Under the pieces are notes generated by a model. It had not been told where the DNA came from. It was given only the letters and a program-made list of their open reading frames with translations, and did not search any database. A stretch of 32,191 bases of DNA, from contig CAKRON010000019.1 in the NCBI GenBank assembly GCA_934373455.1, positions 1 through 32,191 of the forward strand, given 5' to 3'. The position numbers and the translations under genes are program-made. Below are positions 6,949 to 24,419 of the stretch, piece after piece. Each line of letters opens with the position of its first letter. The stretch's first letter is position 1. Source of the stretch: an uncultured Marvinbryantia sp. (GTDB taxonomy: Bacteria; Bacillota; Clostridia; Lachnospirales; Lachnospiraceae).

Positions 6949-6988
6949 AGAGGGTACTGCAAAACTATGCAGTGCCCTCTTGCATTTT
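6949..6988 (+). terminator. Terminator-like hairpin between the NlpC/P60 gene and glnN
   Basis: AGAGGG-T-ACTGCA pairs with TGCAGT-G-CCCTCT around a six-base A-rich loop. The tail is TTGCATTTT, an imperfect T tract. It probably ends the NlpC/P60 transcript. Its build, two arms joined by a T-G pair and a hexaloop starting with A, is shared with the first hairpin of the amt leader, so a leader role for glnN cannot be excluded. Confidence 0.6.
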
Positions 6989-7008
6989 CGGAATAAATCG
7001 AGTATCAT
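6980..7008 (+). promoter_or_regulatory. Possible promoter of glnN
   Basis: TTGCAT (6980-6985) and TATCAT (7003-7008) are 17 bases apart. The -10 is good, the -35 weak. It starts at the last base of the hairpin above, so the unit would begin just after that terminator. Confidence 0.4.
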
Positions 7009-7048
7009 TTTTCATAGCAAAAAATATACATACTGCGAAGGAGGATAT

Positions 7049-9259: not shown

Positions 9260-9288
9260 TTGACTTTTAAAAATTGCAGTGTTATTAT
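9260..9288 (+). promoter_or_regulatory. Promoter of the amt leader
   Basis: TTGACT (9260-9265), 17 bases, TATTAT (9283-9288). Transcription should begin near 9295, just before the two leader hairpins. An imperfect GlnR/TnrA-type palindrome at 9280-9296 overlaps the -10. Confidence 0.75.
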
Positions 9289-9301
9289 GCAGTACATAAA
9301 A

Positions 9302-9342
9302 GCAAGGGCGCTATGGAAAACAAATTCCATGGCGCCTTTTGC
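9302..9342 (+). promoter_or_regulatory. First stem-loop of the amt leader
   Basis: Bases 9307-9318 pair continuously with 9325-9336 (12 pairs, one T-G wobble) and close a six-base loop AACAAA. Extra pairing of GCAA with TTGC extends the base. A short T run (9337-9340) follows, too weak for a firm terminator call. It is the only candidate for an upstream ANTAR-type hairpin, but loop position 4 is A rather than G. Confidence 0.6.
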
Positions 9343-9354
9343 AATATAAAGAAG

Positions 9355-9419
9355 AGCGAAACAATGAGGTTTTGTGAGGGAATGGTATTCCGACAGAACT
9401 TTGATGTTTCGCTTTTTTT
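9355..9419 (+). promoter_or_regulatory. Attenuator in the amt leader: terminator overlapping a hexaloop hairpin
   Basis: AGCGAAACA (9355-9363) pairs with TGTTTCGCT (9405-9413), followed by a T run to 9419, an intrinsic terminator ending only 4 bases before the ribosome binding site. Inside it GGAAT/ATTCC and GTTTTGT/ACAGAAC can extend the stem. Alternatively, GCGAAAC (9356-9362) pairs with GTTTTGT (9369-9375) around loop AATGAG, with A at position 1 and G at position 4, as in ANTAR-protein targets. That hairpin uses the 5' strand of the terminator, so the two folds exclude each other. The terminator is clearly visible; the ANTAR reading is inference. Confidence 0.7.
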
Positions 9420-9438
9420 AAAAGAGGAGGAGAAAAAT

Positions 9439-11229: not shown

Positions 11230-11294
11230 CCGTTGGGGACGGAGTTTTTTGGCTCTCCCCGGCAAATCCAACCTCCTAAGTATTTGGGTAAAAG

Positions 11295-11338
11295 AAAACT
11301 GTTCCATTTGTGTGAAAACACAGTCGGGGCAGTTTTTT
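11295..11338 (+). terminator. Intrinsic terminator after amt
   Basis: AAAACTG pairs with CAGTTTT, TCC with GGG inside it, and an inner TGTGT-GAAA-ACACA tetraloop hairpin tops the structure; six Ts follow. A second hairpin without a T run (GGGGA/TCCCC, around 11237-11260) lies just after the stop codon. Confidence 0.85.
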
Positions 11339-11392
11339 ATGTGCCCATTTGTGATGTATTTTTAAAATTCAATATTTTGACAATAAAACTAC

Positions 11393-11421
11393 TTGACAAA
11401 CAAACTATCCTGACATATACT
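11393..11421 (+). promoter_or_regulatory. Promoter of the fab operon
   Basis: Perfect TTGACA (11393-11398), 17 bases, TATACT (11416-11421). Start of transcription about 11428. Another TTGACA at 11377-11382 has no matching -10. A strong consensus promoter fits an operon held in check by a repressor. Confidence 0.88.
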
Positions 11422-11433
11422 TTGAAAGTCAAA
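11421..11433 (+). promoter_or_regulatory. FabT-type operator on the fabH promoter
   Basis: TTTGA-AAG-TCAAA is a perfect inverted repeat beginning at the last base of the -10 box and covering the predicted start site. From memory, FabT sites in streptococci have the core TTTGA-N3-TCAAA. A MarR-family gene lies downstream in the same cluster (21884-22357), so autoregulated repression of the whole island is the simplest reading. Confidence 0.7.
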
Positions 11434-11487
11434 TATATTTAAAGTAAAAATATACGAAGATCAAACATTATATGGAAGGAGACTTTC

Positions 11488-12453
11488 ATGAAAGCAGTAG
11501 TATGTGGAACAGGATCGTCAGTTCCGGCATGTGTCTGGGACAATGATGATCTGTCCAGAATGGTAGATACCAATGACGAGTGGATTCGTGAACGAACCGG
11601 TATTATCACAAGGCACATTGCAAAAGAAGAAACCTGTGTGTCGATGGCTTCTGAAGCGGCCAGAAGGGCGCTGGCGCAAGCCGGGATACCTGCAGAAGAA
11701 GTGGATCTGCTGATTGTATCTACAATTTCATCCAACATCGTGCTTCCTTGTACAGCATGTGAAGTACAAAAAGAAATAGGCGCAGTAAATGCAGTCGCCT
11801 ATGACCTGAGTGCCGCATGTACCGGATTTGTTCTGGCATATCAATGTGCACAGAGTTTTCTTCAGGCAGGAATCTACCGGACAGCACTGCTGATCGGCAG
11901 CGAATGTTTGTCCAATCTGGTGAACTGGAAGGACCGTGGGACATGCATTCTGTTTGGAGATGGTGCAGGAGCAGCCGTAATAAAAGCAGAAGAAGGAAAA
12001 AGCTATCTTCCGGCAACCCATTCCGATGGGAAAAAAGGCGACGCACTAAAATGCAAAAGCATGATGGATGGAGAAAAAGAAAACCAGAAGCAGCATCCGG
12101 AAGAATACAAGATGCAGATGGATGGACAGGCAGTATTTAAATTTGCGGTACGCCAGGTTCCGGCAGTGATAAAAGAAGTGCTGGAAAAAAATAATCTGAG
12201 TCTGGAAGAGATTGACTGGATCATTTTGCACCAGGCAAACAAGCGGATTGTGGAAGCTGTCAGCAGATATCTGAATGTGCCTCTGGAAAAATTTCCGATG
12301 AATATGCAGGAATATGGGAATACTTCATCGGCCAGCATACCGATTCTGCTGGATGAAATGAATCGAAATCAGAGACTGAAAAAAGGACAGAAAATAGTAC
12401 TCGCGGGATTTGGCGCGGGATTGACCTGGGGAGCAAGCGTCCTTGAGTGGTAA
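11488..12453 (+). CDS. fabH: 3-oxoacyl-ACP synthase III (FabH)
   Basis: Starts fatty-acid synthesis by condensing an acyl-CoA primer with malonyl-ACP. 321 residues, normal for the family. Catalytic triad visible as Cys111 (LSAACTGF), His248 (LHQANKR) and Asn278 (YGNTSSAS). AAGGAG ends 6 bases before the ATG. First gene of the operon, directly under the FabT-type operator. Primer preference (acetyl or branched) cannot be read from the sequence. Confidence 0.96.
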   Translation: MKAVVCGTGSSVPACVWDNDDLSRMVDTNDEWIRERTGIITRHIAKEETCVSMASEAARRALAQAGIPAEEVDLLIVSTISSNIVLPCTACEVQKEIGAVNAVAYDLSAACTGFVLAYQCAQSFLQAGIYRTALLIGSECLSNLVNWKDRGTCILFGDGAGAAVIKAEEGKSYLPATHSDGKKGDALKCKSMMDGEKENQKQHPEEYKMQMDGQAVFKFAVRQVPAVIKEVLEKNNLSLEEIDWIILHQANKRIVEAVSRYLNVPLEKFPMNMQEYGNTSSASIPILLDEMNRNQRLKKGQKIVLAGFGAGLTWGASVLEW

Positions 12454-12520
12454 TGTAAGAATGTTTGTACCAGATCAGAAATGATAACAATAGAATGGAA
12501 AGAAAAAGGAGATTAAACAC

Positions 12521-12748
12521 ATGTTTGAAAAAATTAGAGAAATGATCGCAGAAAACCTGAATATTGAAAAGGATACCATTACAGAAGGAGCTTCTTTTAA
12601 GGAAGATTTGGGAGTAGATTCCCTGGATCTGTTTGAGCTGGTAATGGCTTTAGAAGAAGAATTCGGAGTAGAAATTCCGACAGAAGATCTGGAAGGACTG
12701 ACAACCGTCGGAGATGTTGCAAGATATGTGGAGAGTCATCAGGAATAG
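12521..12748 (+). CDS. acpP: Acyl carrier protein
   Basis: 75-residue acidic helical carrier. Ser34 in GVDSLDLFEL is the 4'-phosphopantetheine attachment site. It carries the growing acyl chain for all Fab enzymes encoded around it. AAAAGGAG lies about 9 bases before the ATG. The 67-base gap from fabH holds no clear promoter. Confidence 0.96.
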   Translation: MFEKIREMIAENLNIEKDTITEGASFKEDLGVDSLDLFELVMALEEEFGVEIPTEDLEGLTTVGDVARYVESHQE

Positions 12749-12769
12749 TAAAGCATACGAGGTTTAAAC

Positions 12770-13708
12770 ATGAAGACAGAAATTACAGAGTTACTTGGAA
12801 TCGAATACCCGATTATCCAGGGAGGTATGGCCTGGGTAGCGGAACATCATCTGGCAGCAGCAGTATCAGAAGCCGGAGGTCTTGGATTGATCGGTGCCGC
12901 AAGTGCACCGGCAGAATGGGTCAGAGAAGAGATTCGAAAAGCAAAAGAACTGACACAGAAACCATTTGGTGTAAATATCATGCTTATGAGTCCACATGCG
13001 GATGATGTGGCAAAAGTAATTGTAGAAGAAGGCGTAAAGGTCGTAACTACAGGAGCCGGAAATCCGGAAAAATATATGAAGATGTGGAAAGATGCCGGTG
13101 TGAAAGTGATACCTGTGGTAGCCTCCGTAGCCATGGCAAAAAGAATGCAGCGTACAGGAGCAGATGCAGTGGTAGCAGAAGGCTGCGAATCCGGCGGTCA
13201 CGTGGGAGAAAGCACCACCATGGCACTGGTGCCGCAGGTGGTAGATGCTGTAGATATCCCGGTGATCGCAGCCGGCGGAATCGGTGATGGAAGAGGTATT
13301 GCAGCAGCCTTTATGCTGGGGGCAAGAGGTGTACAGATGGGAACCCATTTTGTAGTCACGACAGAATCCCAGGTACATGAAAATTACAAAGATATGATCA
13401 TTCGTGCCAAAGATATCGACACCCGTGTAACAGGAAGAAGTACAGGTCATCCGGTACGTGCACTCAGAAATGAAATGACAAAAAAATACCTGGAACTGGA
13501 AAACAGTGGCGCAGGATTTGAAGAATTGGAATTATTAACACTTGGAGGACTGCGAAAAGCGGTAGTCGAAGGAGATGTAAAAACTGGAAGCGTGATGTCA
13601 GGTCAGATTGCAGGTCTTGTAAAAGAAAAAATGTCTTGCAAAGAACTGATTCAGAAGCTGGTGACAGAAACAGATACATTACTGAAAGGAACTGGAATAT
13701 ATGAGTAA
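12770..13708 (+). CDS. fabK: Enoyl-ACP reductase, FMN type (FabK)
   Basis: Last reduction step of each elongation cycle, NAD(P)H and FMN dependent. 312-residue TIM barrel of the NPD family with IIQGGMAWV at the start, His144 in ESGGHVGE (the catalytic His in pneumococcal FabK is at the same position), and the phosphate-binding AAGGIGDGRGIAAAFMLGARGVQMGT. Its last 8 bases overlap fabD. It lacks the four-cysteine segment found in the paralogue at 20747-21835. FabK rather than FabI predicts low triclosan sensitivity. Confidence 0.95.
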   Translation: MKTEITELLGIEYPIIQGGMAWVAEHHLAAAVSEAGGLGLIGAASAPAEWVREEIRKAKELTQKPFGVNIMLMSPHADDVAKVIVEEGVKVVTTGAGNPEKYMKMWKDAGVKVIPVVASVAMAKRMQRTGADAVVAEGCESGGHVGESTTMALVPQVVDAVDIPVIAAGGIGDGRGIAAAFMLGARGVQMGTHFVVTTESQVHENYKDMIIRAKDIDTRVTGRSTGHPVRALRNEMTKKYLELENSGAGFEELELLTLGGLRKAVVEGDVKTGSVMSGQIAGLVKEKMSCKELIQKLVTETDTLLKGTGIYE

Positions 13709-14606
13709 AACAGCCTTTCTTTTTCCCGGACAGGGCGTACAAAAATGTGGTATGGGCGAAGATTTTTATCGCAGCAGTCCACAGGCAGCCAGACTTTTTG
13801 ATGAAGCAGGCAAAGCAATCGGACTGGACATGAAAGCACTTTGTTTTGAAAAAAATGATTTGCTGGATCAGACAGAATACACGCAGGCGGCACTGGTTAC
13901 TACCTATCTTGCCATCAGCCGGGAACTGGAGCAGCGCGGAATAAAACCTGATATTACAGCAGGCTTGAGCCTTGGAGAATATGCAGCGATAGCAGTGGCA
14001 GGTGCGATGAGCGATCTGGAAGCAATCCGTCTGGTGAGAAAACGCGGTATGCTGATGCAGCATACGGTACCGGCTGGAGAAGGTGCAATGTGTGCAATTC
14101 TGGCACTGGATGAAAAGAAGATTGAAGAAGTTCTGGACGATATACCAGATGTAACCATTGCAAACTACAACTGTCCGGGACAGATTGTCATTACCGGAAA
14201 AACAGAAGCGGTAAAGACAGCTGCAGAAAAATTAAAAGAAGCCGGAGCCAGAAGAACTTTAATGCTGAATGTCAGCGGACCATTTCATTCTCCGATGTTA
14301 AAGGCGGCAGAGAAAGATCTGAGACAGGAACTGGAACAGATACAGTTTAAAAAATTGCAGATCCCATATGTAACCAATGTGAATGCACAGAAAATAACAG
14401 AAGAATCAGAAATCGCTGACCTGTTGGTAAGACAGATGTATTCCCCGGTACGTTGGATGCAAAGTATGCAGACACTCATAGAAGATCAGGTGGATACCTT
14501 TATAGAAATCGGTCCGGGAAAAACATTAGAAGGATTTTTAAAGAAGATTGATAAAAATGTACAGGTGCTTCATGTATCCTGTTGGGAAGACCTGGAAAAA
14601 TTCTGA
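13701..14606 (+). CDS. fabD: Malonyl-CoA:ACP transacylase (FabD)
   Basis: Loads malonyl units onto ACP. 301 residues; nucleophile Ser90 in GLSLGE, catalytic His196 in SGPFHSPML, N-terminal FPGQGVQ. Starts within the end of fabK (8-base overlap, ATG 13701 with AAAGGA upstream), indicating translational coupling. Confidence 0.96.
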   Translation: MSKTAFLFPGQGVQKCGMGEDFYRSSPQAARLFDEAGKAIGLDMKALCFEKNDLLDQTEYTQAALVTTYLAISRELEQRGIKPDITAGLSLGEYAAIAVAGAMSDLEAIRLVRKRGMLMQHTVPAGEGAMCAILALDEKKIEEVLDDIPDVTIANYNCPGQIVITGKTEAVKTAAEKLKEAGARRTLMLNVSGPFHSPMLKAAEKDLRQELEQIQFKKLQIPYVTNVNAQKITEESEIADLLVRQMYSPVRWMQSMQTLIEDQVDTFIEIGPGKTLEGFLKKIDKNVQVLHVSCWEDLEKF

Positions 14607-14634
14607 AACATTCTTGAATGAAATAGGAGATATT

Positions 14635-15372
14635 ATGTCAGAACAGAAAATAGCAGTTGTAACCGGTGCCTCCAGGGGAATTGGCAAGGCCATCGCCCTG
14701 CGCCTGGCAAAAGACGGATACAAAGTAATCATTAATTATAATGGATCAGAAACTGCAGCCCTGGAAGTAAAGGCGCAGATCGAACAGATGGGAGCACAGG
14801 CAGATACCATGCAGTGCAATGTGGCAGATTTTGAAAGCTGCCAGAAGTTTGTAGAAAGAGTCATAACAGAAAACGGACGAATCGATGTGTTAGTGAATAA
14901 TGCAGGAATTACAAGAGACGGACTTTTAATGCGTATGTCAGAAGAAGACTTTGACCAGGTGCTGGATACGAATTTAAAAGGAACTTTTCATATGATTCGT
15001 TTTGTATCCCGCTATATGTTGAAACAGAAAAGCGGACGAATCGTAAATATGGCATCTGTCGTAGGAGTAGCCGGAAATGCCGGACAGGCAAATTATGCGG
15101 CATCGAAGGCCGGAGTAATCGGACTCACCAAGACAGCAGCAAAGGAACTGGCATCCAGAGGAATTACCGTCAATGCAATTGCACCAGGATTTATCGAAAC
15201 CGATATGACAGACGTATTAAGTGACAGCGTAAAAGAAAACAGCAGAAAACAGATTCCTCTCGGAAAGTTTGGCAAACCGGAAGATGTGGCAGCGGCAGCG
15301 GCATTTCTGGCATCAGAAGATGCCCGATACATTACCGGACAGGTGCTTCATGTAGACGGTGGAATGTGCTGA
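14635..15372 (+). CDS. fabG: 3-oxoacyl-ACP reductase (FabG)
   Basis: NADPH-dependent reduction of beta-ketoacyl-ACP. 245-residue short-chain dehydrogenase. Cofactor loop TGASRGIG (10-17), NNAG (88-91), catalytic Ser141, Tyr154 and Lys158 (YAASK), and a C-terminal GQVLHVDGGM. ATG 14635 is chosen because AGGAG lies 5 bases before it; the longer frame from 14548 overlaps fabD and adds residues foreign to the family. Confidence 0.96.
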   Translation: MSEQKIAVVTGASRGIGKAIALRLAKDGYKVIINYNGSETAALEVKAQIEQMGAQADTMQCNVADFESCQKFVERVITENGRIDVLVNNAGITRDGLLMRMSEEDFDQVLDTNLKGTFHMIRFVSRYMLKQKSGRIVNMASVVGVAGNAGQANYAASKAGVIGLTKTAAKELASRGITVNAIAPGFIETDMTDVLSDSVKENSRKQIPLGKFGKPEDVAAAAAFLASEDARYITGQVLHVDGGMC

Positions 15373-15399
15373 CACCAGGGTTCAAATGTCAGAAAGCCG

Positions 15400-15415
15400 T
15401 TCATGCTTGCATGAA
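15400..15415 (+). other. Intercistronic hairpin between fabG and fabF
   Basis: TTCATGC and GCATGAA form a near-perfect palindrome in the 65-base gap, with no T run. It is probably an mRNA processing or stability element, possibly tuning fabG against fabF. Confidence 0.45.
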
Positions 15416-15437
15416 AGGAAAAGAAAGGAAAACAAAC

Positions 15438-16676
15438 ATGAAAAGAAGAGTAGTAGTAACTGGTCTGGGAGCTGTGACTCCAATTGGAAATACGGTAGAG
15501 GAATTCTGGAATTCCATCAAAGCCGGAACAGTCGGAATCGGTGAAATTACAAAATTTGATACAACAGCATATAAAGTAAAGCTGGCTGCAGAAGTAAAAG
15601 ATTTTCAGGCAAAAGAGCGTATGGATGCAAAAGCAGCCCGCAGAATGGAGACATTTTCTCAGTTTGCAGTGGCAGCAGCAAAAGAGGCATTTGAAGATGC
15701 AGGACTGGATATGGAACAGGAAGATCCATTTCGCGCCGGAGTGATTATCGGATCAGGAATCGGATCTTTAGGCATTATTGAAAAAGAATATGAAAAAATT
15801 CTCACAAAAGGACCGGGAAGAGTGAATCCACTGCTGGTACCGTTGATGATATCCAATATGGCAGCAGGAAATGTATCCATCCAGCTTGGCTTGAAAGGAA
15901 AATGTACCAATGTAGTAACCGCCTGTGCATCCGGAACAAATTGTATCGGAGATGCTCTTCGGGCGATTCAGTATGGAGATGCGGAAATTATGCTGGCGGG
16001 AGGAACAGAGAGCAGTATTACGCCGACAGCCATAGCCGGATTTACCAATCTGACGGCACTGACCACATCCACTGATCCTCTTCGTGCGTCGATTCCATTT
16101 GATAAAGACCGCAGCGGATTTGTGCTGGGTGAAGGCGCCGGAGTCGTAGTACTGGAAGAACTGGAACACGCACTTGCCAGAAATGCACATATTTATGCAG
16201 AACTGGCAGGCTATGGTGCAACAGGAGATGCTTATCATATTACATCACCATGTGAAGATGGAAGCGGCGCAGCAAAAGCGATGGAATATGCCATGAAAGA
16301 AGCAGATGTAAAACCAGAAGAAGTGGATTATATCAATGCTCATGGAACCAGTACCCATCATAATGATCTGTTTGAGACAAGAGCTATTAAGAAGGCATTT
16401 GGTGAAGCTGCGAAAAATCTGCACATCAATTCCACAAAATCCATGATCGGACATTTGCTTGGTGCAGCCGGTGGAGTAGAATTCGTTACCTGTGTAAAAT
16501 CCCTGGAAGAAGGCTATATCCATCCAACAGTCGGCACTACAGAAGCAGATCCGGAATGTGATTTGAATTATACAATCGGTGAACCTGTAAAGAAAGAATT
16601 ACACTGTGTTATGACAAATTCTCTGGGATTTGGCGGACATAATGCAACATTATTGTTAAAGCGTTATTCAGAATAA
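15438..16676 (+). CDS. fabF: 3-oxoacyl-ACP synthase II (FabF)
   Basis: Elongating condensing enzyme. 412 residues. Active-site Cys163 (TACASGTN), His302 (NAHGTSTHHND) and His339 (KSMIGHLLGAAG). Translation starts at 15438 (MKRRVVVTGLG) after an AAAGGAA site; the open frame extends upstream to 15366 but without a good ribosome site and with residues unlike the family. No FabB is present in the window, so FabF is the only elongating synthase here. Confidence 0.96.
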   Translation: MKRRVVVTGLGAVTPIGNTVEEFWNSIKAGTVGIGEITKFDTTAYKVKLAAEVKDFQAKERMDAKAARRMETFSQFAVAAAKEAFEDAGLDMEQEDPFRAGVIIGSGIGSLGIIEKEYEKILTKGPGRVNPLLVPLMISNMAAGNVSIQLGLKGKCTNVVTACASGTNCIGDALRAIQYGDAEIMLAGGTESSITPTAIAGFTNLTALTTSTDPLRASIPFDKDRSGFVLGEGAGVVVLEELEHALARNAHIYAELAGYGATGDAYHITSPCEDGSGAAKAMEYAMKEADVKPEEVDYINAHGTSTHHNDLFETRAIKKAFGEAAKNLHINSTKSMIGHLLGAAGGVEFVTCVKSLEEGYIHPTVGTTEADPECDLNYTIGEPVKKELHCVMTNSLGFGGHNATLLLKRYSE

Positions 16677-16694
16677 CCGGAAAGGAAGCAGAAG

Positions 16695-17168
16695 ATGGAT
16701 ATCGAACAGATGATTCGGCTGGTCAATACAGTTTCAGCATCAAACTTAACGGAATTTTCATATGAAGAAAGCGGTATGACAGTCAGACTGGCAAAAAAAC
16801 AGGGTAAAACCGTGATCTATCAGAATACAGGATCATCGGAACAGTCGCCGCTGGTTACTGCGGCAGTATCTCCGCAGATATCTGTACCATCACAGGAAAT
16901 GGCTGCTGCAGAAGAAACTGCCTTATCAGCAGAAGGAAAAACGATCACATCTCCGCTGGTAGGTGTATTTTATGCAGCGCCGGCAGAAGATGCGGATGCT
17001 TTCGTACAAGTGGGAGATACGATAAAAAAAGGTCAGGTACTGGCCATTGTAGAAGCTATGAAACTTATGAATGAAATCGAGAGCGATTACGACGGAACCA
17101 TAGCAGAAATATTAGTAGAAAACGGCCAGCCGGTAGAATACGGGCAGCCTTTATTCAGAATACGTTAA
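16695..17168 (+). CDS. accB: Biotin carboxyl carrier protein of acetyl-CoA carboxylase (AccB)
   Basis: Carries carboxybiotin between AccC and the carboxyltransferase. 157 residues: a short N-terminal helix, an Ala/Ser/Glu-rich flexible linker (45-80), and a biotinyl domain (84-157) with Lys123 in EAMKLMNEI as biotin site. Starts 18 bases after the fabF stop with an AAAGGAAG site. Confidence 0.95.
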   Translation: MDIEQMIRLVNTVSASNLTEFSYEESGMTVRLAKKQGKTVIYQNTGSSEQSPLVTAAVSPQISVPSQEMAAAEETALSAEGKTITSPLVGVFYAAPAEDADAFVQVGDTIKKGQVLAIVEAMKLMNEIESDYDGTIAEILVENGQPVEYGQPLFRIR

Positions 17169-17170
17169 GG

Positions 17171-17201
17171 TCATTGAGCAAGTTTTGAAATTGAGCAATG
17201 A
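17171..17201 (+). repeat. Repeat and stem-loop between accB and fabZ
   Basis: TTGAGCAA occurs twice (17174-17181 and 17191-17198), 17 bases apart, and TCATTG (17171-17176) pairs with CAATGA (17196-17201). No T run follows. Could be an mRNA processing hairpin or a protein site; function unknown. Confidence 0.4.
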
Positions 17202-17218
17202 TGTAAAGGAGTATAAGT

Positions 17219-17647
17219 ATGAGACATTTGGATATTAAGGGGATTCAGGAGATCATTCCTCACAGACATCCATTTCTTCTTTTGGATTATGTAGAAGATT
17301 ATGAACCGGGACAGTATGCGGTCGCATATAAATGCGTATCCTACCGAGAGGAATTTTTTGCCGGACATTTTCCACAGGAACCGGTAATGCCGGGAGTCCT
17401 GACAGTAGAAGCTCTGGCTCAGGCCGGAGCAGTTGCAATCTTGAGTCTGGAAGAAAATAAGGGAAAAACAGCATATTTTGGAGGAATCCAAAAGTGCAAA
17501 TTCCGCGGTAAAGTTGTTCCGGGAGATAAACTCCGTCTGGAAACCAGAATTATCAAATCCAAAGGACCGGTAGGAGTCGGAGAAGCAGTTGCTTCTGTAG
17601 ATGGAAAAGTAGTAGTCAGTGCAGAACTGACCTTTATGGTTGGTTAG
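17219..17647 (+). CDS. fabZ: 3-hydroxyacyl-ACP dehydratase (FabZ)
   Basis: Dehydrates 3-hydroxyacyl-ACP to trans-2-enoyl-ACP. 142-residue hot-dog fold. PHRHPFLLLD at 14-23, catalytic His50 in AGHFPQEPVMPG and Glu64 in VEALAQAG. AAAGGAG sits 7 bases before the ATG. Some FabZ-like proteins (FabN) also isomerise the double bond, which cannot be judged by eye; this is the only dehydratase in the cluster, so the usual FabZ/FabN pair is absent. Confidence 0.95.
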   Translation: MRHLDIKGIQEIIPHRHPFLLLDYVEDYEPGQYAVAYKCVSYREEFFAGHFPQEPVMPGVLTVEALAQAGAVAILSLEENKGKTAYFGGIQKCKFRGKVVPGDKLRLETRIIKSKGPVGVGEAVASVDGKVVVSAELTFMVG

Positions 17648-17656
17648 AAAGGATAC

Positions 17657-18994
17657 ATGATGAAGAAAATACTCATTGCCAACCGCGGAGAGATTGCGGT
17701 TCGTATCATACGTGCATGTCGGGAAATGGGAATAGAAACAGTGGCTGTTTATTCAGAAGCAGATAAAGAAGCACTGCATACCAAACTGGCAGATGAAGCG
17801 ATCTGTATCGGTCCGGCAGCCTCATCGGAAAGTTATCTGAGTATGGAACGCATCATCAGTGCAACCATTGTTTCCGGGGCGGATGCCATTCATCCCGGAT
17901 TTGGATTTCTGTCAGAAAACAGCAAGTTTGCAGAACTGTGTGAGCAATGTCATATTACTTTTATTGGACCGGATGCAAAAACAATTGCCAGACTGGGAAA
18001 TAAACAGGAGGCAAGAAATACCATGATTGCCGCCGGTGTTCCGGTAATCCCGGGAAGTAAAGAAGCTATTTATACCGCCGAAGAAGGAAAACGGCTTGCA
18101 GAAGAAATCGGCTATCCGATTATGATCAAAGCAGCCCTTGGAGGCGGCGGAAAAGGTATGCGTGAAGTATACGAACCGGAAGAATTTGAAGCTGCATTTC
18201 GAATGGCTCAGAAAGAAGCAGAAAATGCGTTTCATGATAAGACGATGTATCTGGAACATCTGGTACTTCATCCACGTCACATAGAATTTCAGATTCTGGC
18301 AGACAATTATGGAAATGTGGTACATTTGGGCGAACGAGACTGTTCTATACAGAGAAATCATCAGAAATTAATAGAAGAATCCCCATCTCCGGCATTGTCT
18401 GAGGAGCTTCGCAGTAAAATGGGAGAAGCAGCGGTAAAAGCGGCGAAAGCAGCCGGATATACCAACGCCGGAACGATTGAATTTTTGCTGGAAAAAAATG
18501 AAAACTTTTATTTCATGGAAATGAATACCAGAATACAGGTAGAACATCCGGTGACAGAATGTGTGACAGGAATCGATCTGATAAAAGCACAAATTCGCAT
18601 TGCATCCGGAGAAAAACTGATGTTTACGCAAAAAGATATTCATATTTCCGGTCATGCCATTGAGTGCAGAATCAATGCAGAAAATCCGGAAAAAAACTTT
18701 CGACCGTCTCCAGGAACGATCCGTGATATGTATCTTCCGGGCGGAAAAGGTGTGAGAATTGACACGGCAATTTACAGTGGATACACCATTACACCTTTTT
18801 ATGATTCTATGATTGCCAAGCTGATTGTCTGGGCAAACAGCCGGAAAGAGGCAATTGATAAGCTGCGCAGTGCCCTGGGTGAAGTGATCATTGAAGGGGT
18901 TGACACAAATGTGGATTACCAGTATGGAATTGTGAACCATCCTGATTTTGTTTCAGGAAACATTGATATAGAGTTTATAAGGAATCAATTATGA
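17657..18994 (+). CDS. accC: Biotin carboxylase subunit of acetyl-CoA carboxylase (AccC)
   Basis: ATP-dependent carboxylation of the biotin on AccB. 445 residues, usual length. N-terminal [21 protein letters not shown]-grasp loop [27 protein letters not shown] and catalytic [14 protein letters not shown]. Two adjacent ATG codons (17657 and 17660); either may be used. The stop overlaps the next start as ATGA, so accC and accDA are translationally coupled. Confidence 0.96.
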
Positions 18995-20694
18995 AGCTGG
19001 ATAATATGTTTAAGAAAAACAGAAGTATATCTCTGAGACGTGTGGAAAACAGGCAGTATAAGCCAGAAGTGCCGGAAGGACTGATGCGAAAGTGTAATCA
19101 GTGTGAGAAAGCAATTATTGCAGAAGAGGCAGAAGCTGGATATTATATCTGTCCCAAATGTGGTGGCTACTTTCATGTGCCGGCCTATAAACGTCTGGAG
19201 ATGATTCTGGATGAAAATAGTTTTGAAGAATGGGATGCGCAGATGCCTGTGTCAAATCCTATGGAATATCGTGGTTATCCGGAAAAACTGGAAGCATTGA
19301 AAGCAAAGACTGGATTAAATGAAGCAGTGGTGACCGGAAAAGGCAGAATCAATGGCAGTGAGACTGTCATAGGTGTATGCGATGGACGTTTTCTCATGGC
19401 CAGCATGGGCGAAAATGTGGGAGAAAAGATCACTCGCGCCGTGGAACGTGCAACAGAAGAACATCTGCCGGTTATTTTATTTTGCTGCTCAGGGGGAGCC
19501 AGAATGCAGGAAGGAATCATATCTCTGATGCAGATGGCTAAGACGTCAGCGGCTTTTAAGCGTCACAGTGACGCAGGACTTCTGTATATCAGTGTGCTGA
19601 CAGATCCGACGACAGGCGGAGTAACGGCCAGTTTTGCCATGCTTGGAGATATACTTCTTGCAGAGCCGGGAGCGCTGATAGGATTTGCCGGACCAAGAGT
19701 GATTGAACAGACCATTCGTCAGAGACTTCCGAAAGGATTTCAAAGAGCAGAATTTTTGCTGGAACATGGATTCTTAGATGCCATAGTAGAAAGACCACAC
19801 ATGAAAGAAGTGCTGGGAAATCTGCTGGATCTTCACAGCGAGAAGGATGAAACCGTCCGTGACTTCCAGAACGAAAATCAGATCATACAGGAAATAGAAC
19901 CGAAACAGACAAAAAGAGATGTCTGGGACCGGGTTTTGATTTCAAGAAAAAAAGACCGTCCGGTAGGAAGTGACTATATTCAGGCACTGTTCACTGATTT
20001 TCAGGAGTTTCACGGAGACCGTCTGTATGGAGATGATCCGGCGGTAATCGGCGGAATTGCCAGATTTAATGGTCAGACAGTAACCGTAATTGCCCAGGAA
20101 AAAGGAAGCAGCACAAAAGAAAATATTGAGCGTAATTTTGCGATGCCAAAACCAGAAGGATATCGGAAAGCACTGCGTCTGATGAAACAGGCAGAAAAAT
20201 TCCACCGTCCGGTGATTTGTTTTGTGGATACACCCGGAGCTTTTTGCGGAATCGAAGCAGAAGAACGGGGACAGGGAGAAGCAATTGCCAGAAATATTTA
20301 TGAGATGTCATCGCTGAAAGTACCGGTGCTGACTGTGATCATTGGAGAAGGCGGAAGTGGAGGCGCGCTGGCGCTTGCCACATCGGATGAAGTATGGATG
20401 CTGGAGAATGCCGTGTATTCGATTTTATCGCCGGAAGGGTTTGCCAGCATTTTATGGAAAGACAGTACCAAAGCAAAAGAAGCGGCAAAAGTGATGAAAC
20501 TCACATCAGATTGTTTAAAAACGCAGGGAATTGTGGATAAAGTAATTCCGGAACCGGAGGATTTTACCAGAGAAAATTTGTATCAGGTGACATATTCGCT
20601 GGAAAATGACATAGGCTGTTTCTTACGCAAATATGAGAAAATGACAGAAGCGGAACTGACAGAACATCGTTACCAGAGGTTTCGAAAATTATAA
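18991..20694 (+). CDS. accDA: Acetyl-CoA carboxylase carboxyltransferase, AccD-AccA fusion
   Basis: Transfers the carboxyl group from biotin to acetyl-CoA, giving malonyl-CoA. A single 567-residue chain replaces the usual two subunits. Residues 1-285 are AccD (beta) with the zinc ribbon Cys35, Cys38, Cys54, Cys57 and the GGARMQEG crotonase-like segment. After a charged linker (about 285-325), residues 325-567 are AccA (alpha) with [30 protein letters not shown] and [11 protein letters not shown]. The frame is continuous with no stop or slippery site near the joint. The AccA part lacks much of the usual N-terminal helical extension. Confidence 0.93.
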
Positions 20695-20696
20695 TA

Positions 20697-20717
20697 GATG
20701 GGTGAGAATCTCCCATC
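20697..20717 (+). other. Intercistronic hairpin after accDA
   Basis: GATGGG pairs with CCCATC, with inner AG/CT pairing, right after the accDA stop and before the ribosome site of the next gene. No T run, so read-through into the next gene is expected. Confidence 0.4.
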
Positions 20718-20746
20718 GAAAAGATGCTCAGTTTATGGAGGAACAA

Positions 20747-21835
20747 ATGGAAAAAGAATTGCAGATCGGTGGACTGACTGTAAAAAGACCGATTCTTCAA
20801 GGTGGTATGGGTATTGGAATCAGTCTTGGAAATCTGGCAGGTGCAGTGGCAAAACACGGTGGAGTAGGAATCATTTCAGCGGCACAGATTGGCTTTCGGG
20901 AACCTGATTTTGATGGAAATACAGAAGAGGCAAATGCGCGGGCGATACACAGTGAATATCAAAAGGCGCGAAAGATTTCACCGGACGGTGTCATTGGATT
21001 TAATATAATGGTGGCAATGCAGCACTATGAGCGATATGTAAAAGAGGCAATACAGGCAGGAGCAGATATTATTGTATCAGGTGCGGGACTTCCGATGGAT
21101 TTGCCGGCGATTGCAGGTAAAGCCAAAACAGCCCTGGCTCCGATTGTATCATCTGAGAGATCAGCCAGATTAATTTTAAAATACTGGGAGAAAAAATATC
21201 AGCGTCTGCCGGATCTTGTTGTAATTGAAGGACCACTGGCAGGGGGACATCTTGGCTTCTCCCCGGAACAGCTGACGGAATATGTAAAGGAAAAAAAGAA
21301 AAACTATGATGAAGAAGTTTGCCGGATCATGGAAACGGTAAAAGAGTACGCGCAAAAAGCGAAAAAAAGTATTCCGATAGCGCTGGCAGGAGGCATCAGC
21401 AGCCCAAAAGAGGTCAGACATGCCTTTGAATTGGGCGCAGATGCCGTTCAGGTGGCCACTCGTTTTGTCACAACGAAAGAATGTGATGCAGATATTCGTT
21501 ATAAACAGGCATACATTGATGCAAAAGAAACAGATATCGTAATCACCAAAAGTCCTGTGGGAATGCCTGGCAGAGCAATTTTAAATTCATTTTTGAAAAA
21601 AGTGCAGAGCGGAGAAAAAATCAGACCGCAAAAATGCCATGGATGCCTGAAAAAATGTAAACCAATGGAGATTCCATATTGTATTACAGATGCGTTGGTT
21701 CACGCAGCAAAAGGTGAAGTAGAAGATGCACTTTTGTTTTGCGGAGCAGATGCGTGGAAAGCAGAGAAAATCGAAACGGTGGAAGAAGTAATAAATTCTT
21801 TATTTACGGATAAAAAATGGTTGCCCCAAAACTGA
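20747..21835 (+). CDS. NPD-family FMN protein with a four-cysteine cluster; candidate FabX/UfaA-like unsaturated fatty-acid enzyme
   Basis: 362-residue flavin TIM barrel related to FabK and nitronate monooxygenase: ILQGGMGIGISLGN at the N-terminus, His168 in AGGHLGF and the phosphate loop ALAGGISSPKEVRHAFELGADAVQVATRF. Unlike FabK (12770-13708), it has a C-terminal segment with Cys297, Cys300, Cys304 and Cys312 (C-x2-C-x3-C-x7-C), a plausible [4Fe-4S] site. Known relatives with roles in making unsaturated acyl-ACP are Helicobacter FabX (FMN plus 4Fe-4S) and Neisseria UfaA. No FabA, FabM or second FabZ is encoded nearby. Function is inferred; a second enoyl reductase or true nitronate monooxygenase is possible. 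GGAGG 5 bases upstream favours ATG 20747 over the in-frame ATG 20735. Confidence 0.75.
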   Translation: MEKELQIGGLTVKRPILQGGMGIGISLGNLAGAVAKHGGVGIISAAQIGFREPDFDGNTEEANARAIHSEYQKARKISPDGVIGFNIMVAMQHYERYVKEAIQAGADIIVSGAGLPMDLPAIAGKAKTALAPIVSSERSARLILKYWEKKYQRLPDLVVIEGPLAGGHLGFSPEQLTEYVKEKKKNYDEEVCRIMETVKEYAQKAKKSIPIALAGGISSPKEVRHAFELGADAVQVATRFVTTKECDADIRYKQAYIDAKETDIVITKSPVGMPGRAILNSFLKKVQSGEKIRPQKCHGCLKKCKPMEIPYCITDALVHAAKGEVEDALLFCGADAWKAEKIETVEEVINSLFTDKKWLPQN

Positions 21836-21850
21836 AAAAAAGGATATAAT
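21821..21850 (+). promoter_or_regulatory. Possible internal promoter for the MarR/patatin pair
   Basis: TTGCCC (21821-21826), 18 bases, TATAAT (21845-21850), starting inside the end of the NPD gene. The -10 is perfect and the -35 half-matched. It would let the repressor gene be expressed apart from the fab promoter. Confidence 0.5.
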
Positions 21851-21883
21851 CAGATATGAGATAACAAATAGCAGTAGAAAGAT

Positions 21884-22357
21884 ATGGTAGCATACATGGA
21901 AGAGAAAATGGATAACGCAGCAGAGAAGATCAATTATATACTGGTGAATCTGATTAATGAGGTGTGGGTTCTGGAAGAGAAGGCAATTATCACCGATGAG
22001 TTTAAGGATATCACGAATAATGATATGCATGTGATAGAAGCAATTGGACTGGGAGAAGGAAGTAATATGTCTTCTGTTGCCAGAAAGCTGAATATTACAG
22101 TTGGGTCACTGACTACAGCCATCAATCATCTTGTCAGAAAAAATTATGTGGAACGCTACAGGGGCGAAGAAGACCGCCGGCTGGTTTTTGTCAGATTGAC
22201 AGAAAAAGGCGTTGCGGCCTATGAACATCATGCAGATTATCATCGGCAGATGACGCAGGCAGTTATGGAAAAACTGACAGATGAGGAGACGCCGGTATTG
22301 GTAAAAACTCTGGATGCGCTGTCAGACTTTTTTAAAGGATATGGAAAAAGGAAGTAG
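21884..22357 (+). CDS. fabT: MarR-family repressor, probably FabT
   Basis: 157-residue winged-helix regulator. The recognition region is ITVGSLTTAINHLVRKNYVERYRGEEDRRLVFVRLTEKG, with the DRR and VxLTEKG wing typical of MarR. In streptococci FabT sits at the head of an almost identical fab gene order and represses it when bound to long-chain acyl-ACP; here it sits at the tail. The TTTGA-N3-TCAAA operator on the fabH promoter supports the same job. The ribosome site is weak for ATG 21884; the in-frame ATG 21896 is an alternative start. Confidence 0.8.
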   Translation: MVAYMEEKMDNAAEKINYILVNLINEVWVLEEKAIITDEFKDITNNDMHVIEAIGLGEGSNMSSVARKLNITVGSLTTAINHLVRKNYVERYRGEEDRRLVFVRLTEKGVAAYEHHADYHRQMTQAVMEKLTDEETPVLVKTLDALSDFFKGYGKRK

Positions 22358-22362
22358 ATAGA

Positions 22363-23232
22363 ATGAAGACAGGTTTGATACTGGAAGGCGGTGCCATGCG
22401 TGGCATGTATACAGCAGGTGTGCTGGATGTCATGATGGAGAACAACATATGGGTAGACGGAGCTGTGGGAGTCTCTGCCGGAGCAGTATTTGGCTGCAAT
22501 TACAAATCAAAGCAGATTGGTCGGAGCATTCGTTATAATAAGAAATATGGAAGGGATCCTCGGTATGCAGGATTCCATTCTTTGCTTAAAACAGGTGATT
22601 ATTTTGGCACGGAATTTTGCTATCATGAGATTCCGGAAAAACTGGATCCCTTTGATACGGAGACATTCCAGAATAATCCGGCTGAATTTTATGTGGTGGG
22701 TACGGATGTGACTACCGGAGAGGCAGTGTATCACAAATGCACCACCGGAAAAGATAAAGACCTGGACTGGTTCAGGGCGTCTGCCTCGATGCCTTTATTA
22801 TCCAATATTGTTGAAGTGGACGGGTATCAGCTGCTGGATGGCGGGATTGCGGATTCCATTCCGCTGGAATGGTTTCGCAGTATAGGATATGAGAGAAATA
22901 TCATTATCTTGACCAGAGATAAGACATATCATAAGAAGAAAAACAAGATGATTCCTCTTTTTAAAACGCTGCTGCATAAATATCCGGAAGTGGCAAAAGC
23001 CATGAAACAACGCCATATCATGTATAATGAAGAACTGCGTCTGGTAGAAGAACAGGAAAAAGCAGGAAAGGCGCTGGTCATTCGCCCAAGCGAGCCAATC
23101 ACCATTTCCCGCACAGAAAATGATCCGGAGAAACTGGAAGAAGTATATCAGCTTGGAAGAAAAGACGGACAAAAAAATCTGGAAAAAATGAAGATTTTCC
23201 TGAAAACATCCAGAGCCGGCATTCCGGAATGA
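22363..23232 (+). CDS. Patatin-like phospholipase
   Basis: 289-residue lipid acyl hydrolase with a Ser-Asp dyad: oxyanion loop GGAMRG (9-14), nucleophile Ser38 in GVSAG and Asp159 in LLDGGIAD. No signal peptide, so probably acts on the inner face of the membrane. Starts 5 bases after fabT with an AAGGAAG site, so the two are co-transcribed. Placed after fabT it may recycle or remodel acyl chains, but that is inference. Resembles bacterial YjjU/RssA-type proteins; exact substrate unknown. Confidence 0.88.
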   Translation: MKTGLILEGGAMRGMYTAGVLDVMMENNIWVDGAVGVSAGAVFGCNYKSKQIGRSIRYNKKYGRDPRYAGFHSLLKTGDYFGTEFCYHEIPEKLDPFDTETFQNNPAEFYVVGTDVTTGEAVYHKCTTGKDKDLDWFRASASMPLLSNIVEVDGYQLLDGGIADSIPLEWFRSIGYERNIIILTRDKTYHKKKNKMIPLFKTLLHKYPEVAKAMKQRHIMYNEELRLVEEQEKAGKALVIRPSEPITISRTENDPEKLEEVYQLGRKDGQKNLEKMKIFLKTSRAGIPE

Positions 23233-23262
23233 GATGCCTGAATAAGACGTTGCGTTGATCCC

Positions 23263-23334
23263 TTGACGCAAGATCAAATAGGCATTATAATCGATCATGA
23301 AAGTGTCTTGCCGTAGAGACTCGTGGCAGAACAC
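23263..23334 (+). promoter_or_regulatory. Promoter and leader hairpin of the DUF1858 gene
   Basis: TTGACG (23263-23268), 17 bases, perfect TATAAT (23286-23291). Two interlocked inverted repeats cover the -35: TTGCGT (23250-23255) with ACGCAA (23266-23271), and TTGATC (23255-23260) with GATCAA (23272-23277). In the leader, GTGT (23303-23306) and TGCC pair with GGCA and ACAC (23331-23334), forming an imperfect hairpin. Confidence 0.75.
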
Positions 23335-23367
23335 AAAAGAAGAATACGATACCAGGAGGAAATAAAA

Positions 23368-23577
23368 ATGGCAAAAGTAAATAAAGACATGCTGATTGGC
23401 GAAATCCTTCAGTTAGATCCAAATATGGCAGGAGTATTAATGGCTAGTGGAATGCACTGTGTAGGATGCCCTTCTTCACAGGCAGAATCTTTAGAAGAAG
23501 CAGCTATGGTTCATGGACTTCCAGTAGATCTTGTAGTAGCAAGACTGAATGCATATCTGGAAAGCGTTGGCAAATAA
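23368..23577 (+). CDS. DUF1858 small redox-disulfide-type protein
   Basis: 69 residues, cytosolic. Matches the DUF1858 family, described as a hybrid-cluster-protein-associated redox disulfide domain: a short helix pair with GVLMASGMHCVGCPSS, Cys31 and Cys34 forming the CxxC, then ESLEEAAMVHGL and a C-terminal helix. AGGAGG (23354-23359) is 8 bases before ATG 23368, so the longer frame from 23323 is rejected. Stands alone between its own promoter and a strong terminator. No hybrid-cluster protein gene is in the window. Confidence 0.88.
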   Translation: MAKVNKDMLIGEILQLDPNMAGVLMASGMHCVGCPSSQAESLEEAAMVHGLPVDLVVARLNAYLESVGK

Positions 23578-23604
23578 GTCAAAGCGATGTACCTTTTTAT
23601 CATG

Positions 23605-23640
23605 AAAATGGAGCGGTTGTTATGCAACCGCTCCATTTTT
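23605..23640. terminator. Bidirectional terminator between DUF1858 and mecA
   Basis: AAAATGGAGCGGTTG pairs perfectly with CAACCGCTCCATTTT around a 5-base loop. T-rich on both exits, so it serves both convergent genes. Confidence 0.93.
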
Positions 23641-23654
23641 GGATTTTGTGAAAT

Positions 23655-24419
23655 TCAGATCGCTGCAAGTTTCTGCAGTGCATTTTCCAGAACAATTGCC
23701 TCTCCGTGTTCTATCAGATAAGCTTCTGTTCCGGCAGAATATTTTAAGCTGCTTCCGTATTCAGAAATCATATTACAGATACGGTTAAATTCCTCCGGTG
23801 AATGAGAAGATTTGTTCAGAATCAGATGATAAGATCCATCGGAAGGATCTTTATAAAGAGAATTTACACCGGTGTAACTTCCCTGAAGAATATGGGCTGC
23901 CCGGATCACATGATCCAGACTGTAGAATCCATAGATCTTCTTCATTTCTACATAGAGATCTTCCTCTGTGTCAGATTCTGATTTCTTTTCATCAGAATTA
24001 TCGTCTGCTTTGCCCGATAAAGCTTTATGTGCATCGCGTATTTTCTGAAAAAGATTCAGAATATCATCGGCGCCTTCTGTTTTCATGGAAGAAAGTGCAC
24101 CAAGCAGATCATTATTATCGTCTGAAACTGTTCCCTGAGAAAACTTCGCAAATCGGGTATCCAGTTCTTCCGGATCTTCAACTTTTGTAATAATCAGGAT
24201 AATGGAATCCGCAGATATTGGAATTGCCTCAATCATAAGAGGAATATCATTTGCTTCAAAACCACATTCATAGGCAGCTTGCTGCATCATATCCCGGAAA
24301 AGAGATTTTGCTTTTTCGGTACCATATGCCAGTTCGCTGAGCTTCAGTTTACGGTCAGCCAGGTCTTCACGAGTTAATGTACAGCGTATCTGATTTTCAT
24401 TGAGTCTTTCAATTTTCAT
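23655..24419 (-). CDS. mecA: Adaptor protein MecA
   Basis: 254-residue adaptor that delivers substrates to the ClpC-ClpP protease and helps assemble ClpC hexamers. N-terminal substrate-binding domain MKIERLNENQIRCTLTREDLADR (1-85), an acidic low-complexity linker (about 90-160, with KSESDTEED), and a C-terminal ClpC-binding domain with YVEMKKIYGFYSLDHVIRAAHIL. The start is set by AGGAAG on the minus strand about 7 bases before ATG 24419; the longer frame to 24467 lacks a ribosome site. In spore-formers MecA also affects competence or sporulation regulators, but no such target is in this window. Confidence 0.9.
   Translation of the reverse strand: MKIERLNENQIRCTLTREDLADRKLKLSELAYGTEKAKSLFRDMMQQAAYECGFEANDIPLMIEAIPISADSIILIITKVEDPEELDTRFAKFSQGTVSDDNNDLLGALSSMKTEGADDILNLFQKIRDAHKALSGKADDNSDEKKSESDTEEDLYVEMKKIYGFYSLDHVIRAAHILQGSYTGVNSLYKDPSDGSYHLILNKSSHSPEEFNRICNMISEYGSSLKYSAGTEAYLIEHGEAIVLENALQKLAAI

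Follow-up and report, generated by a model that had tools for sequence, protein, structure and literature searches.

How anaerobic Clostridia place the cis double bond in their membrane lipids is an old question: the organism of the classic labeling work was Clostridium butyricum ATCC 6015 (now C. beijerinckii), and the clostridial double-bond enzyme was still "novel and unknown" in 2009 (PMC2700279; articles are cited by PMC number and, except for PMC3032703, from excerpts of their text). The same question is raised by the stretch analyzed here (the window: all 32,191 nucleotides of contig CAKRON010000019.1, assembly GCA_934373455.1, from an uncultured Marvinbryantia sp. of the Lachnospiraceae), in which an island of fatty acid synthesis (fab) genes with a single fabZ also holds an NPD-superfamily flavoprotein gene at 20747-21835 on the plus strand (its product is P0001; L and G numbers denote loci and genomes). 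Genes of this kind are usually labeled as nitronate-degrading, and we conclude that this one very probably encodes the long-missing double-bond enzyme for membrane fats in a gut-type anaerobe, a FabX/UfaA-family flavoenzyme with flavin mononucleotide (FMN) and a [4Fe-4S] cluster as predicted cofactors. The conclusion rests on family, fold, conservation of ligands and active site, association with fab operons and their regulon, and the near-absence of known alternatives in relatives.

Family Placement

The frame is open over 362 amino acids, with GGAGG before its ATG start, and the features that carry the argument are as follows.

20747-21835, + strand: fabX/ufaA-type gene, a 362-amino-acid NPD-superfamily flavoprotein with a predicted [4Fe-4S] subdomain (from family, tree, fold, and ligand alignment)
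21635-21682, + strand: codons of Cys297, Cys300, Cys304, and Cys312, the predicted [4Fe-4S] ligands (aligned with FabX C300/C304/C308/C320)
21248-21250, + strand: codon of His168, equivalent by alignment of the catalytic His182 of Helicobacter pylori FabX (role of His182 from PMC8626469)

P0001 matches the Pfam family NMO/NPD (PF03060) at 154.7 bits and falls below the FabK model TIGR03151 (119 bits vs. a cut-off of 453.1), whereas the FabK of the window itself, at 12770-13708, reaches 490 bits. A first superfamily tree places P0001 with H. pylori FabX and a UfaA candidate, apart from FabK and the annotated nitronate monooxygenases. A second tree, which left out L002, L003, L010, L018, L020, L088, one long nitronate monooxygenase row, and six FabK rows, gives the same grouping, with 57 rows on one side of a branch with support of 100/99. 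The UfaA row is a candidate open reading frame (ORF) in L117 that we infer to be NGO1024, and the nitronate monooxygenase rows are such by annotation only, with biochemically characterized ones not among them. These sequence comparisons (P0001 and H. pylori FabX are 39–41% identical) support the gene as a member of the FabX/UfaA family on a distinct branch, the identity that a preliminary description of the window had proposed; its further term "FabK-like" holds for the superfamily and fails for FabK proper, and a plain FabK paralog is rejected on model score and tree.

Cluster Ligands, Active Site, and Predicted Fold

The preliminary description had singled out the cysteine segment C-x2-C-x3-C-x7-C (Cys297/Cys300/Cys304/Cys312; CHGCLKKCKPMEIPYC), which indeed lies in frame at these residues. 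In an alignment of 56 FabX-type and 17 FabK rows, read against the FMN, catalytic, acyl carrier protein (ACP), and cluster residues given for FabX (PMC8626469), the columns of FabX C300/C304/C308/C320 each keep cysteine in 55/56 FabX-type rows and in 0/17 FabK rows; the single missing row is presumably that of L020, which has an early frame end. Because of this pattern we reject chance as the origin of the motif. The columns of His182, Glu175, Asn99, Gln240, Ser149, and Ser273 (FabX numbering) are kept in all 56 FabX-type rows. The catalytic histidine (His168) is also kept in all 17 FabK rows; its partner Ser273 is Ser269 in P0001, at a position where the commonest FabK residue is arginine (13/17) and serine is not among the FabK residues shown. 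The ACP-binding residues K152, K159, R160, R164, and T130 of FabX correspond to R138, K145, Y146, K150, and M117, and basic charge is retained at three of the four ACP-helix sites.

The predicted model of P0001, with a predicted local distance difference test score of 91.8, matches FabX over 344 residues at 1.8 Å, and since the match spans model residues 1–355 it reaches through the [4Fe-4S] subdomain. The structure-prediction check suggested in the preliminary description thus gave a modeled fold like that of FabX, C-terminal subdomain included, with the cysteines paired with the FabX ligands by alignment. P0001 very probably binds FMN and one [4Fe-4S] cluster.

The database label supposes a true nitronate monooxygenase that stands here by chance, and the Pfam match and the names of close homologs in their sources speak for it. 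However, tree, fold, and cluster ligands lead us to reject this identity, an oxygen-using enzyme makes little sense here, and the operon and operator evidence given below also stands against it; we hold it to be extremely improbable.

The Missing Step in Related Genomes

The island was described beforehand as holding one FabZ, one FabF, and one FabK with neither FabA nor FabM, and among the 29 distinct window frames scanned with Pfam or NCBIfam there is indeed no FabA above cut-off and no crotonase-family protein. We extended the comparison for FabA, FabM, and FabN to 26 relatives found by a pattern scan. Of these, 23 have a single member of the FabA/FabZ family (PF07977), two have none, and one (G008) has three, so that 25 of the 26 lack an additional FabA or FabN beside FabZ. 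FabM was sought through its whole family (crotonase, PF00378, E 1e-10), which has no member in 22 of the 26; three of the four remaining members have the usual setting of crotonase, with a thiolase-like frame on one side and an HBD-like frame on the other (judged by eye from frame starts), and the one in G026 is unclassified by its neighbors, which together make FabM unlikely in 25 of the 26. To obtain a reference fabM-fabT locus, FabK was searched for in 195 genomes of the same phylum as G019; 33 genomes matched, and no such locus was recognized in 20 regions taken from them. In one Lachnospiraceae genome (L081 and L082; G008:C44:74514-76283), a second, divergent FabK-like gene has an additional FabA/FabZ-family gene on either side, and the group may be a lipid or polyketide cluster of its own.

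The enoyl-ACP reductases of the same 26 genomes vary: 16 have a verified FabK, two a FabI-like protein (G018 and G019, at 264–269 bits, under the model cut-off of 362), three FabV, two a partial NPD-family match only, and three none above thresholds. Reading the PF07055 matches as Ter was rejected, as 3/3 pass FabV models; in G025 (Spirochaetales; L247:2633-4843) FabV adjoins FabZ-like and FabF-like frames, and fabX lies elsewhere. The fabX-type gene is kept while the reductase changes and is therefore not simply that reductase. This bears on the proposal that P0001 is a second enoyl-ACP reductase and not a double-bond enzyme, which would suit the superfamily it has in common with FabK, its place in fab operons, and the partial offsetting of FabK inhibition by Fusobacterium nucleatum FabX (PMC11091888). 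The failed FabK model, the position outside FabK in the tree, and the cluster segment, which occupies the place of the NAD(P)H part of FabK (PMC8626469), all argue against it, and we consider it improbable.

A different possibility is that the single FabZ is bifunctional and forms the cis bond itself, leaving the flavoprotein some other job in lipid synthesis. FabN-type isomerase ability has no sequence signature, which leaves room for this, but the FabZ of C. acetobutylicum showed no isomerization when tested (PMC2700279), and the characterized members of the clade, FabX and UfaA, act in unsaturated fatty acid synthesis. Here too the likelihood appears small, and a double-bond role for the flavoprotein itself is preferred.

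Gene Neighborhoods and Distribution

We read the fab run of the window as one operon in which the fabX-type gene is the eleventh gene (assignments are from the Pfam/NCBIfam scan unless stated otherwise).

11488-12453, + strand: fabH
12521-12748, + strand: acpP
12770-13708, + strand: fabK, enoyl-ACP reductase (above the FabK cut-off)
13701-14606, + strand: fabD
14548-15372, + strand: fabG, true start probably further in
15366-16676, + strand: fabF, true start probably further in
16695-17168, + strand: accB
17219-17647, + strand: fabZ, the sole FabA/FabZ-family gene among the scanned frames
17657-18994, + strand: accC
18991-20694, + strand: accDA, fused carboxyltransferase
21884-22357, + strand: FabT-like MarR regulator (best NCBIfam match FabT)
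22363-23232, + strand: patatin-like phospholipase, probably the last operon gene (a promoter-like site follows at 23263)

The gene had been placed between accDA and a fabT-type repressor gene; the position is right, and the MarR protein lies below the FabT model (130.9 vs. 200 bits) though FabT is its best match. A promoter-like TTGACA-17-TATACT (11/12 matches) stands upstream of fabH at 11393-11421, and a terminator-like hairpin at 23603-23641 lies one gene beyond the phospholipase gene. A consensus scan of 11230-23700 gave promoter-like sites without excess over shuffles (25 vs. 22.7) and terminator-like sites in excess (19 vs. 10.5). Inside the gene run lie five plus-strand terminator-like sites whose stems have 5–8 pairs, and a promoter-like site (10/12) at 21821-21850 is directly ahead of the MarR gene; there may be an internal promoter at this point or partial termination within the run. 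By eye, a perfect inverted repeat (GATGGG...CCCATC, 20697-20717) without a T run separates accDA from fabX and is possibly an mRNA processing or stability hairpin. Upstream of the island, the type III glutamine synthetase gene at 6980-9160 is followed by a frame (9274-11229) for an ammonium transporter that carries a fused P-II regulator domain.

Elsewhere, fab genes lie within 6 kb of the fabX-type gene in 39/91 loci, some of which are cut by contig ends. The order accDA-fabX-fabT is found in the window and in L001-L008, L011, and L020; fabX-fabT-fabH-fabK-fabD in seven loci (L132, L136, L140, L145, L146, L149, and L180); fabK-fabX-fabD in L166, L179, L182, and L186; fabG-fabX-fabF in L165; and fabZ-fabX-fabH in L128, with fabX divergent from or convergent with the fab operon in L026, L138, L143, and L147. 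Locus tags in Streptococcus pneumoniae run fabM (0378), fabT (0379), fabH (0380) (PMC8406281), and in the seven fabX-fabT-fabH loci fabX therefore takes the place of fabM. Among 20 fab regions selected through FabK rather than FabX, six include fabX within the stretch fetched: it heads an acc-fab cluster in L218, L222, and L223 and directly follows fabK in L229, L234, and L236. Two uncultured Bacilli (L018 and L019) have fabX followed by a biotin-protein ligase-like gene (by eye) and then fabD.

A sample of 293 genomes from the class of G005 (Lachnospiraceae, hence Clostridia) gave 74 with a match to P0001, of which 70 were counted after the weak G093, G113, G114, and G183 were dropped, and 60 regions were fetched from 59 of the 74. 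A FabA/FabZ-family gene is present in 69/70 genomes with fabX and 150/223 without (Fisher p 2.7e-9, uncorrected for kinship), a co-occurrence from which we conclude that fabX goes with fatty acid synthesis; two or more such genes are present in 3/69 and 5/150, respectively. In the remaining 145 of those 150 genomes, neither fabX nor a second such gene is present.

Beyond these genomes the family is wide. The copy in L159 (G158) is matched at E 1e-60 by at least 7,991 clusters (90% identity); source names among the listed homologs include nitronate monooxygenase, 2-nitropropane dioxygenase, and NAD(P)H-dependent flavin oxidoreductase, and gut genera are represented by metagenome-assembled genomes (MAGs) of Dorea and by Faecalicatena, [Clostridium] scindens, and Parabacteroides distasonis. 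The L159 copy, a lone one that bears the operator described below, is 99% identical to a protein named C. saccharobutylicum and 81–82% identical to proteins named C. butyricum (from MAGs).

Several outlying relatives deserve mention. The proteins of Ilyobacter (L121:2995-3930, adjoining fabK) and Cetobacterium (L244:3049-3936), of ~311 amino acids, stand just outside the FabX/UfaA clade without the cysteine segment, through either cluster loss or an older form, and three Clostridia proteins of 319–327 amino acids outside the main clade (L183:6072-7001, L184:5980-6903, and L185:6436-7359) have a compact C-x2-C-x3-C-x4-C. On Cupriavidus necator H16 pHG1 (L243:7959-9137), a FabX/UfaA homolog has as neighbors an SCP2-domain gene and a pair of U32-peptidase genes, a set reminiscent of UbiU/UbiV/UbiT of oxygen-independent ubiquinone synthesis; nosZ and a Crp/Fnr regulator gene are close by, and the region is likely an anaerobic-growth island. 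Another homolog, on Caballeronia grimmiae plasmid p1 (L120:2938-4146), is preceded by genes for nitrate respiration (narI), a chemotaxis-transducer-like sensor, and a response regulator.

A Probable FabT-Type Operator

The FabT-like gene next to fabX raises the question of whether the two belong to one regulon. Two operator-like sites precede fabH in the window.

11421-11433, strandless: FabT-type operator TTTGAAAGTCAAA; its first base is the last of the -10-like hexamer, and 54 bp separate its end from the fabH start
11376-11388, strandless: second, weaker operator-like site with one mismatch, 45 bp upstream of the first

In the window alone, four sites with at most one mismatch are at chance level (3.2 expected); the perfect site before fabH is conserved in position in relatives, and the 45-bp pair recurs with two perfect sites in L001, L004, L005, and L006. 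The operator pattern TTTGANNNTCAAA was chosen after the window site and the palindrome consensus of S. pneumoniae FabT (PMC8406281), which makes the loci with lone fabX copies an independent test; five plasmid-collection loci and L183-L185 were left out of this test. Across 106 loci (1.415 Mb), the palindrome occurs 92 times, compared with 5.5 expected from single-base shuffles; in 83 cases a fab, acc, marR, or fabX gene follows within ~500 bp, in loci that are rich in such genes by choice. Among lone fabX copies, which have no fab gene nearby, 13/45 have a perfect operator within 300 bp upstream, against 0/305 other genes of the same loci and 0.1% of shuffled upstream regions; with one mismatch allowed the figures are 18/45, 12/305, and 4.2%. 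Of the copies near fab genes, 9/37 have a perfect operator just upstream. The remaining 27 lone copies lack a FabT-type box, and counting gapped palindromes ahead of them revealed no alternative operator common to four or more loci. In the window, the FabT-like repressor would control the fab operon and the fabX-type gene within it.

Weighing the Double-Bond Role

Several points count against a double-bond role. The gene is found in only 70/293 genomes and most other fab-bearing genomes have a single FabA/FabZ-family gene, so it is not the explanation for all; the 26 relatives were all selected for carrying it. A perfect operator is absent upstream of 32/45 lone and 28/37 near-fab copies (inside an operon none is expected). 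P0001 is only 39–41% identical to FabX, the ACP-binding Arg160 and Thr130 of FabX are not kept, and the acyl-chain contacts differ, with Phe74/Tyr75 lacking a counterpart and Tyr277 replaced by Met273, for which reason its chain-length preference may differ. The characterized H. pylori FabX, moreover, needs oxygen and acts as a dehydrogenase (PMC8626469), the effect of FabX in F. nucleatum described below (PMC11091888) could come from binding of the inhibitor by FabX or from reverse (reductase) action, and the unsaturated chains of Faecalicatena contorta could come in part from the growth medium.

These chains are themselves of interest. The F. contorta type strain has 21.9% 18:1n9 and 36.3% 18:1w9c dimethyl acetal (DMA) (PMC8003473), and strain ET51 (G001) carries the fabX-type gene with one FabA/FabZ-family gene and no crotonase-family gene. 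In Faecalimonas species, one MAG of which carries the gene (L011), 16:0 and 18:1w9c DMA predominate, and in Allocoprococcus similis, another of the Lachnospiraceae, 14:0 and 16:0 predominate (PMC12778736). The w9 bond, if the chains are home-made, would imply insertion at C12 and not at C10. With all of this considered, a FabX/UfaA-family flavoenzyme placing the cis double bond remains, with high probability, the best explanation.

Proposed Mechanism

Given such a role, how would the enzyme act in a strict anaerobe? H. pylori FabX is an O2-requiring dehydrogenase that oxidizes decanoyl-ACP and then isomerizes the product (PMC8626469); because O2 is its acceptor, this route is ruled out in a fermenting strict anaerobe, and the earlier caveat that the electron acceptor would have to differ stands. 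P0001 may need no acceptor at all. FabZ would release trans-2-enoyl-ACP, which the fabX-type enzyme would take as substrate for a redox-neutral isomerization to cis-3, the job of FabM in Streptococcus, while flavin and cluster stayed in a fixed or internally cycled redox state. If the double-bond role is granted, we put this isomerization at about even chances and dehydrogenation of acyl-ACP with another acceptor at rather less than even.

Isomerization is favored since ferredoxin and NAD+ lie too low in potential to take electrons from the acyl/enoyl couple, and since no redox partner stood out near fabX when neighbors up to four genes away were clustered across 91 loci and representatives viewed by eye. 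A GltD/NfnB-like flavoprotein does occur near fabX in L155, L164, L121, L181, and L135 (close copies in 2/91 loci, distant matches in three more); it is a possible electron partner or a chance neighbor, and we take it as no evidence. In anaerobic F. nucleatum, moreover, the minimum inhibitory concentration of a FabK inhibitor was 3.1 µg/ml with induced FabX, 0.4 with induced empty vector, and 0.8 uninduced (PMC11091888), which is the opposite of the effect expected from the extra enoyl-ACP that a dehydrogenase would make.

The same role could be served by other chemistry, in which saturated acyl-ACP is dehydrogenated in the manner of FabX ("backtracking") and electrons pass to electron-transferring flavoprotein (ETF), ferredoxin, flavodoxin, or NAD+. 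The catalytic histidine, serine partner, and cluster ligands of FabX are all kept in P0001, and a conserved cluster is hard to account for if no electrons leave; UfaA functions without oxygen with an acceptor described as unknown (PMC11300592), and anaerobic gonococci induce ETF-ubiquinone oxidoreductase along with NGO1024 (PMC3032703). Against backtracking stand the lack of a conspicuous electron-transfer partner and the protection of F. nucleatum by FabX over-expression noted above. The step would also be thermodynamically uphill with low-potential carriers, and we regard this chemistry as a minority prospect, albeit a serious one.

To return to isomerization, we tentatively suggest that in strict anaerobes the family could be an acceptor-free FMN/[4Fe-4S] trans-2 to cis-3 enoyl-ACP isomerase working on the FabZ product, at the C12 stage in some Lachnospiraceae, where it would explain 18:1 w9 chains. 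In that case the dehydrogenase of H. pylori, with its use of oxygen, would have derived from an old anaerobic isomerase, and the family would fill a gap open in many Clostridia since Goldfine and Bloch, that of the cis-double-bond enzyme. With labeled decanoate and dodecanoate, an isomerase would leave label in w9 chains alone; backtracking would carry label from decanoate into w7 chains. Bloch's group reportedly saw the former pattern in C. butyricum.

Isabella and Clark (2011) reportedly suggested the family already for anaerobes without FabA. FabX homologs above 50% identity are recorded in 31 genera of seven phyla, mostly anaerobes (PMC8626469), and the copies of Fusobacterium (PMC11091888) and Parabacteroides (PMC11300592) already bear the name FabX. 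FabX and UfaA are known; P0001 adds a member on a distinct branch, with new evidence of context, and we found no account of FabT-regulated FabX in Bacillota fab operons in the open-access literature (subscription papers lay outside the search). Gene, operon place, and FabT-type operator together make a concrete candidate for part of the bacteria whose double-bond enzyme is missing, one that extends to the proteins named C. saccharobutylicum and C. butyricum through their closeness to the L159 copy, a lone member of this clade with an operator. There is also a bearing on FabX as a drug target: published accounts call it species-specific and rare among healthy gut bacteria (PMC8626469; PMC12079444), whereas homologs occur in gut genera and P0001 keeps 7 of 11 inhibitor-contact residues (Ser269, Val271, Pro274, Arg276, Ile313, Leu317, and Phe331).

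Comparison with Known Systems

The nearest characterized system is H. pylori FabX (HP0773; PDB 7e1q), with which P0001 shares the clade, a TIM barrel with FMN site, the catalytic histidine and its Ser273 partner, a C-terminal [4Fe-4S] subdomain with four aligned cysteines, and a positively charged ACP helix. The two differ in cysteine spacing (C-x3-C-x3-C-x11-C in FabX), in the region of Phe74/Tyr75, where P0001 is shorter, and at Tyr277 (methionine in P0001); the host of P0001 is, moreover, a presumed strict anaerobe with no O2 acceptor, and its gene lies inside a fab operon with a FabT-like repressor gene. UfaA (NGO1024), required for anaerobic unsaturated fatty acid synthesis in Neisseria gonorrhoeae (PMC11300592), belongs to the same clade, and the candidate ORF in L117 has four cysteines (C-x5-C-x3-C-x12-C), but it is only 35% identical, sits on a long branch, and comes from a facultative anaerobe with a respiratory chain. 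The Fusobacterium homolog (C4N14_08920 in F. nucleatum; F. vincentii copy L241) is likewise from an anaerobe, with four cysteines and FabK alongside; however, L241 is 56% identical to H. pylori FabX and 40% to P0001, and in F. nucleatum the gene reportedly shares its operon with a hypothetical gene and not with fab genes (PMC11091888).

FabK has in common with P0001 the superfamily, the FMN site, and the histidine, yet it is an NAD(P)H reductase of a separate clade without the cluster cysteines. FabM is not known to carry a flavin or a cluster. The FabM of S. pneumoniae belongs to the enoyl-CoA hydratase/isomerase family (PMC8406281) and is unrelated in sequence, whereas the proposed job, making the cis-3 isomer from the FabZ product, would be the same, and in seven loci fabX likewise stands beside fabT at the head of the fab operon.
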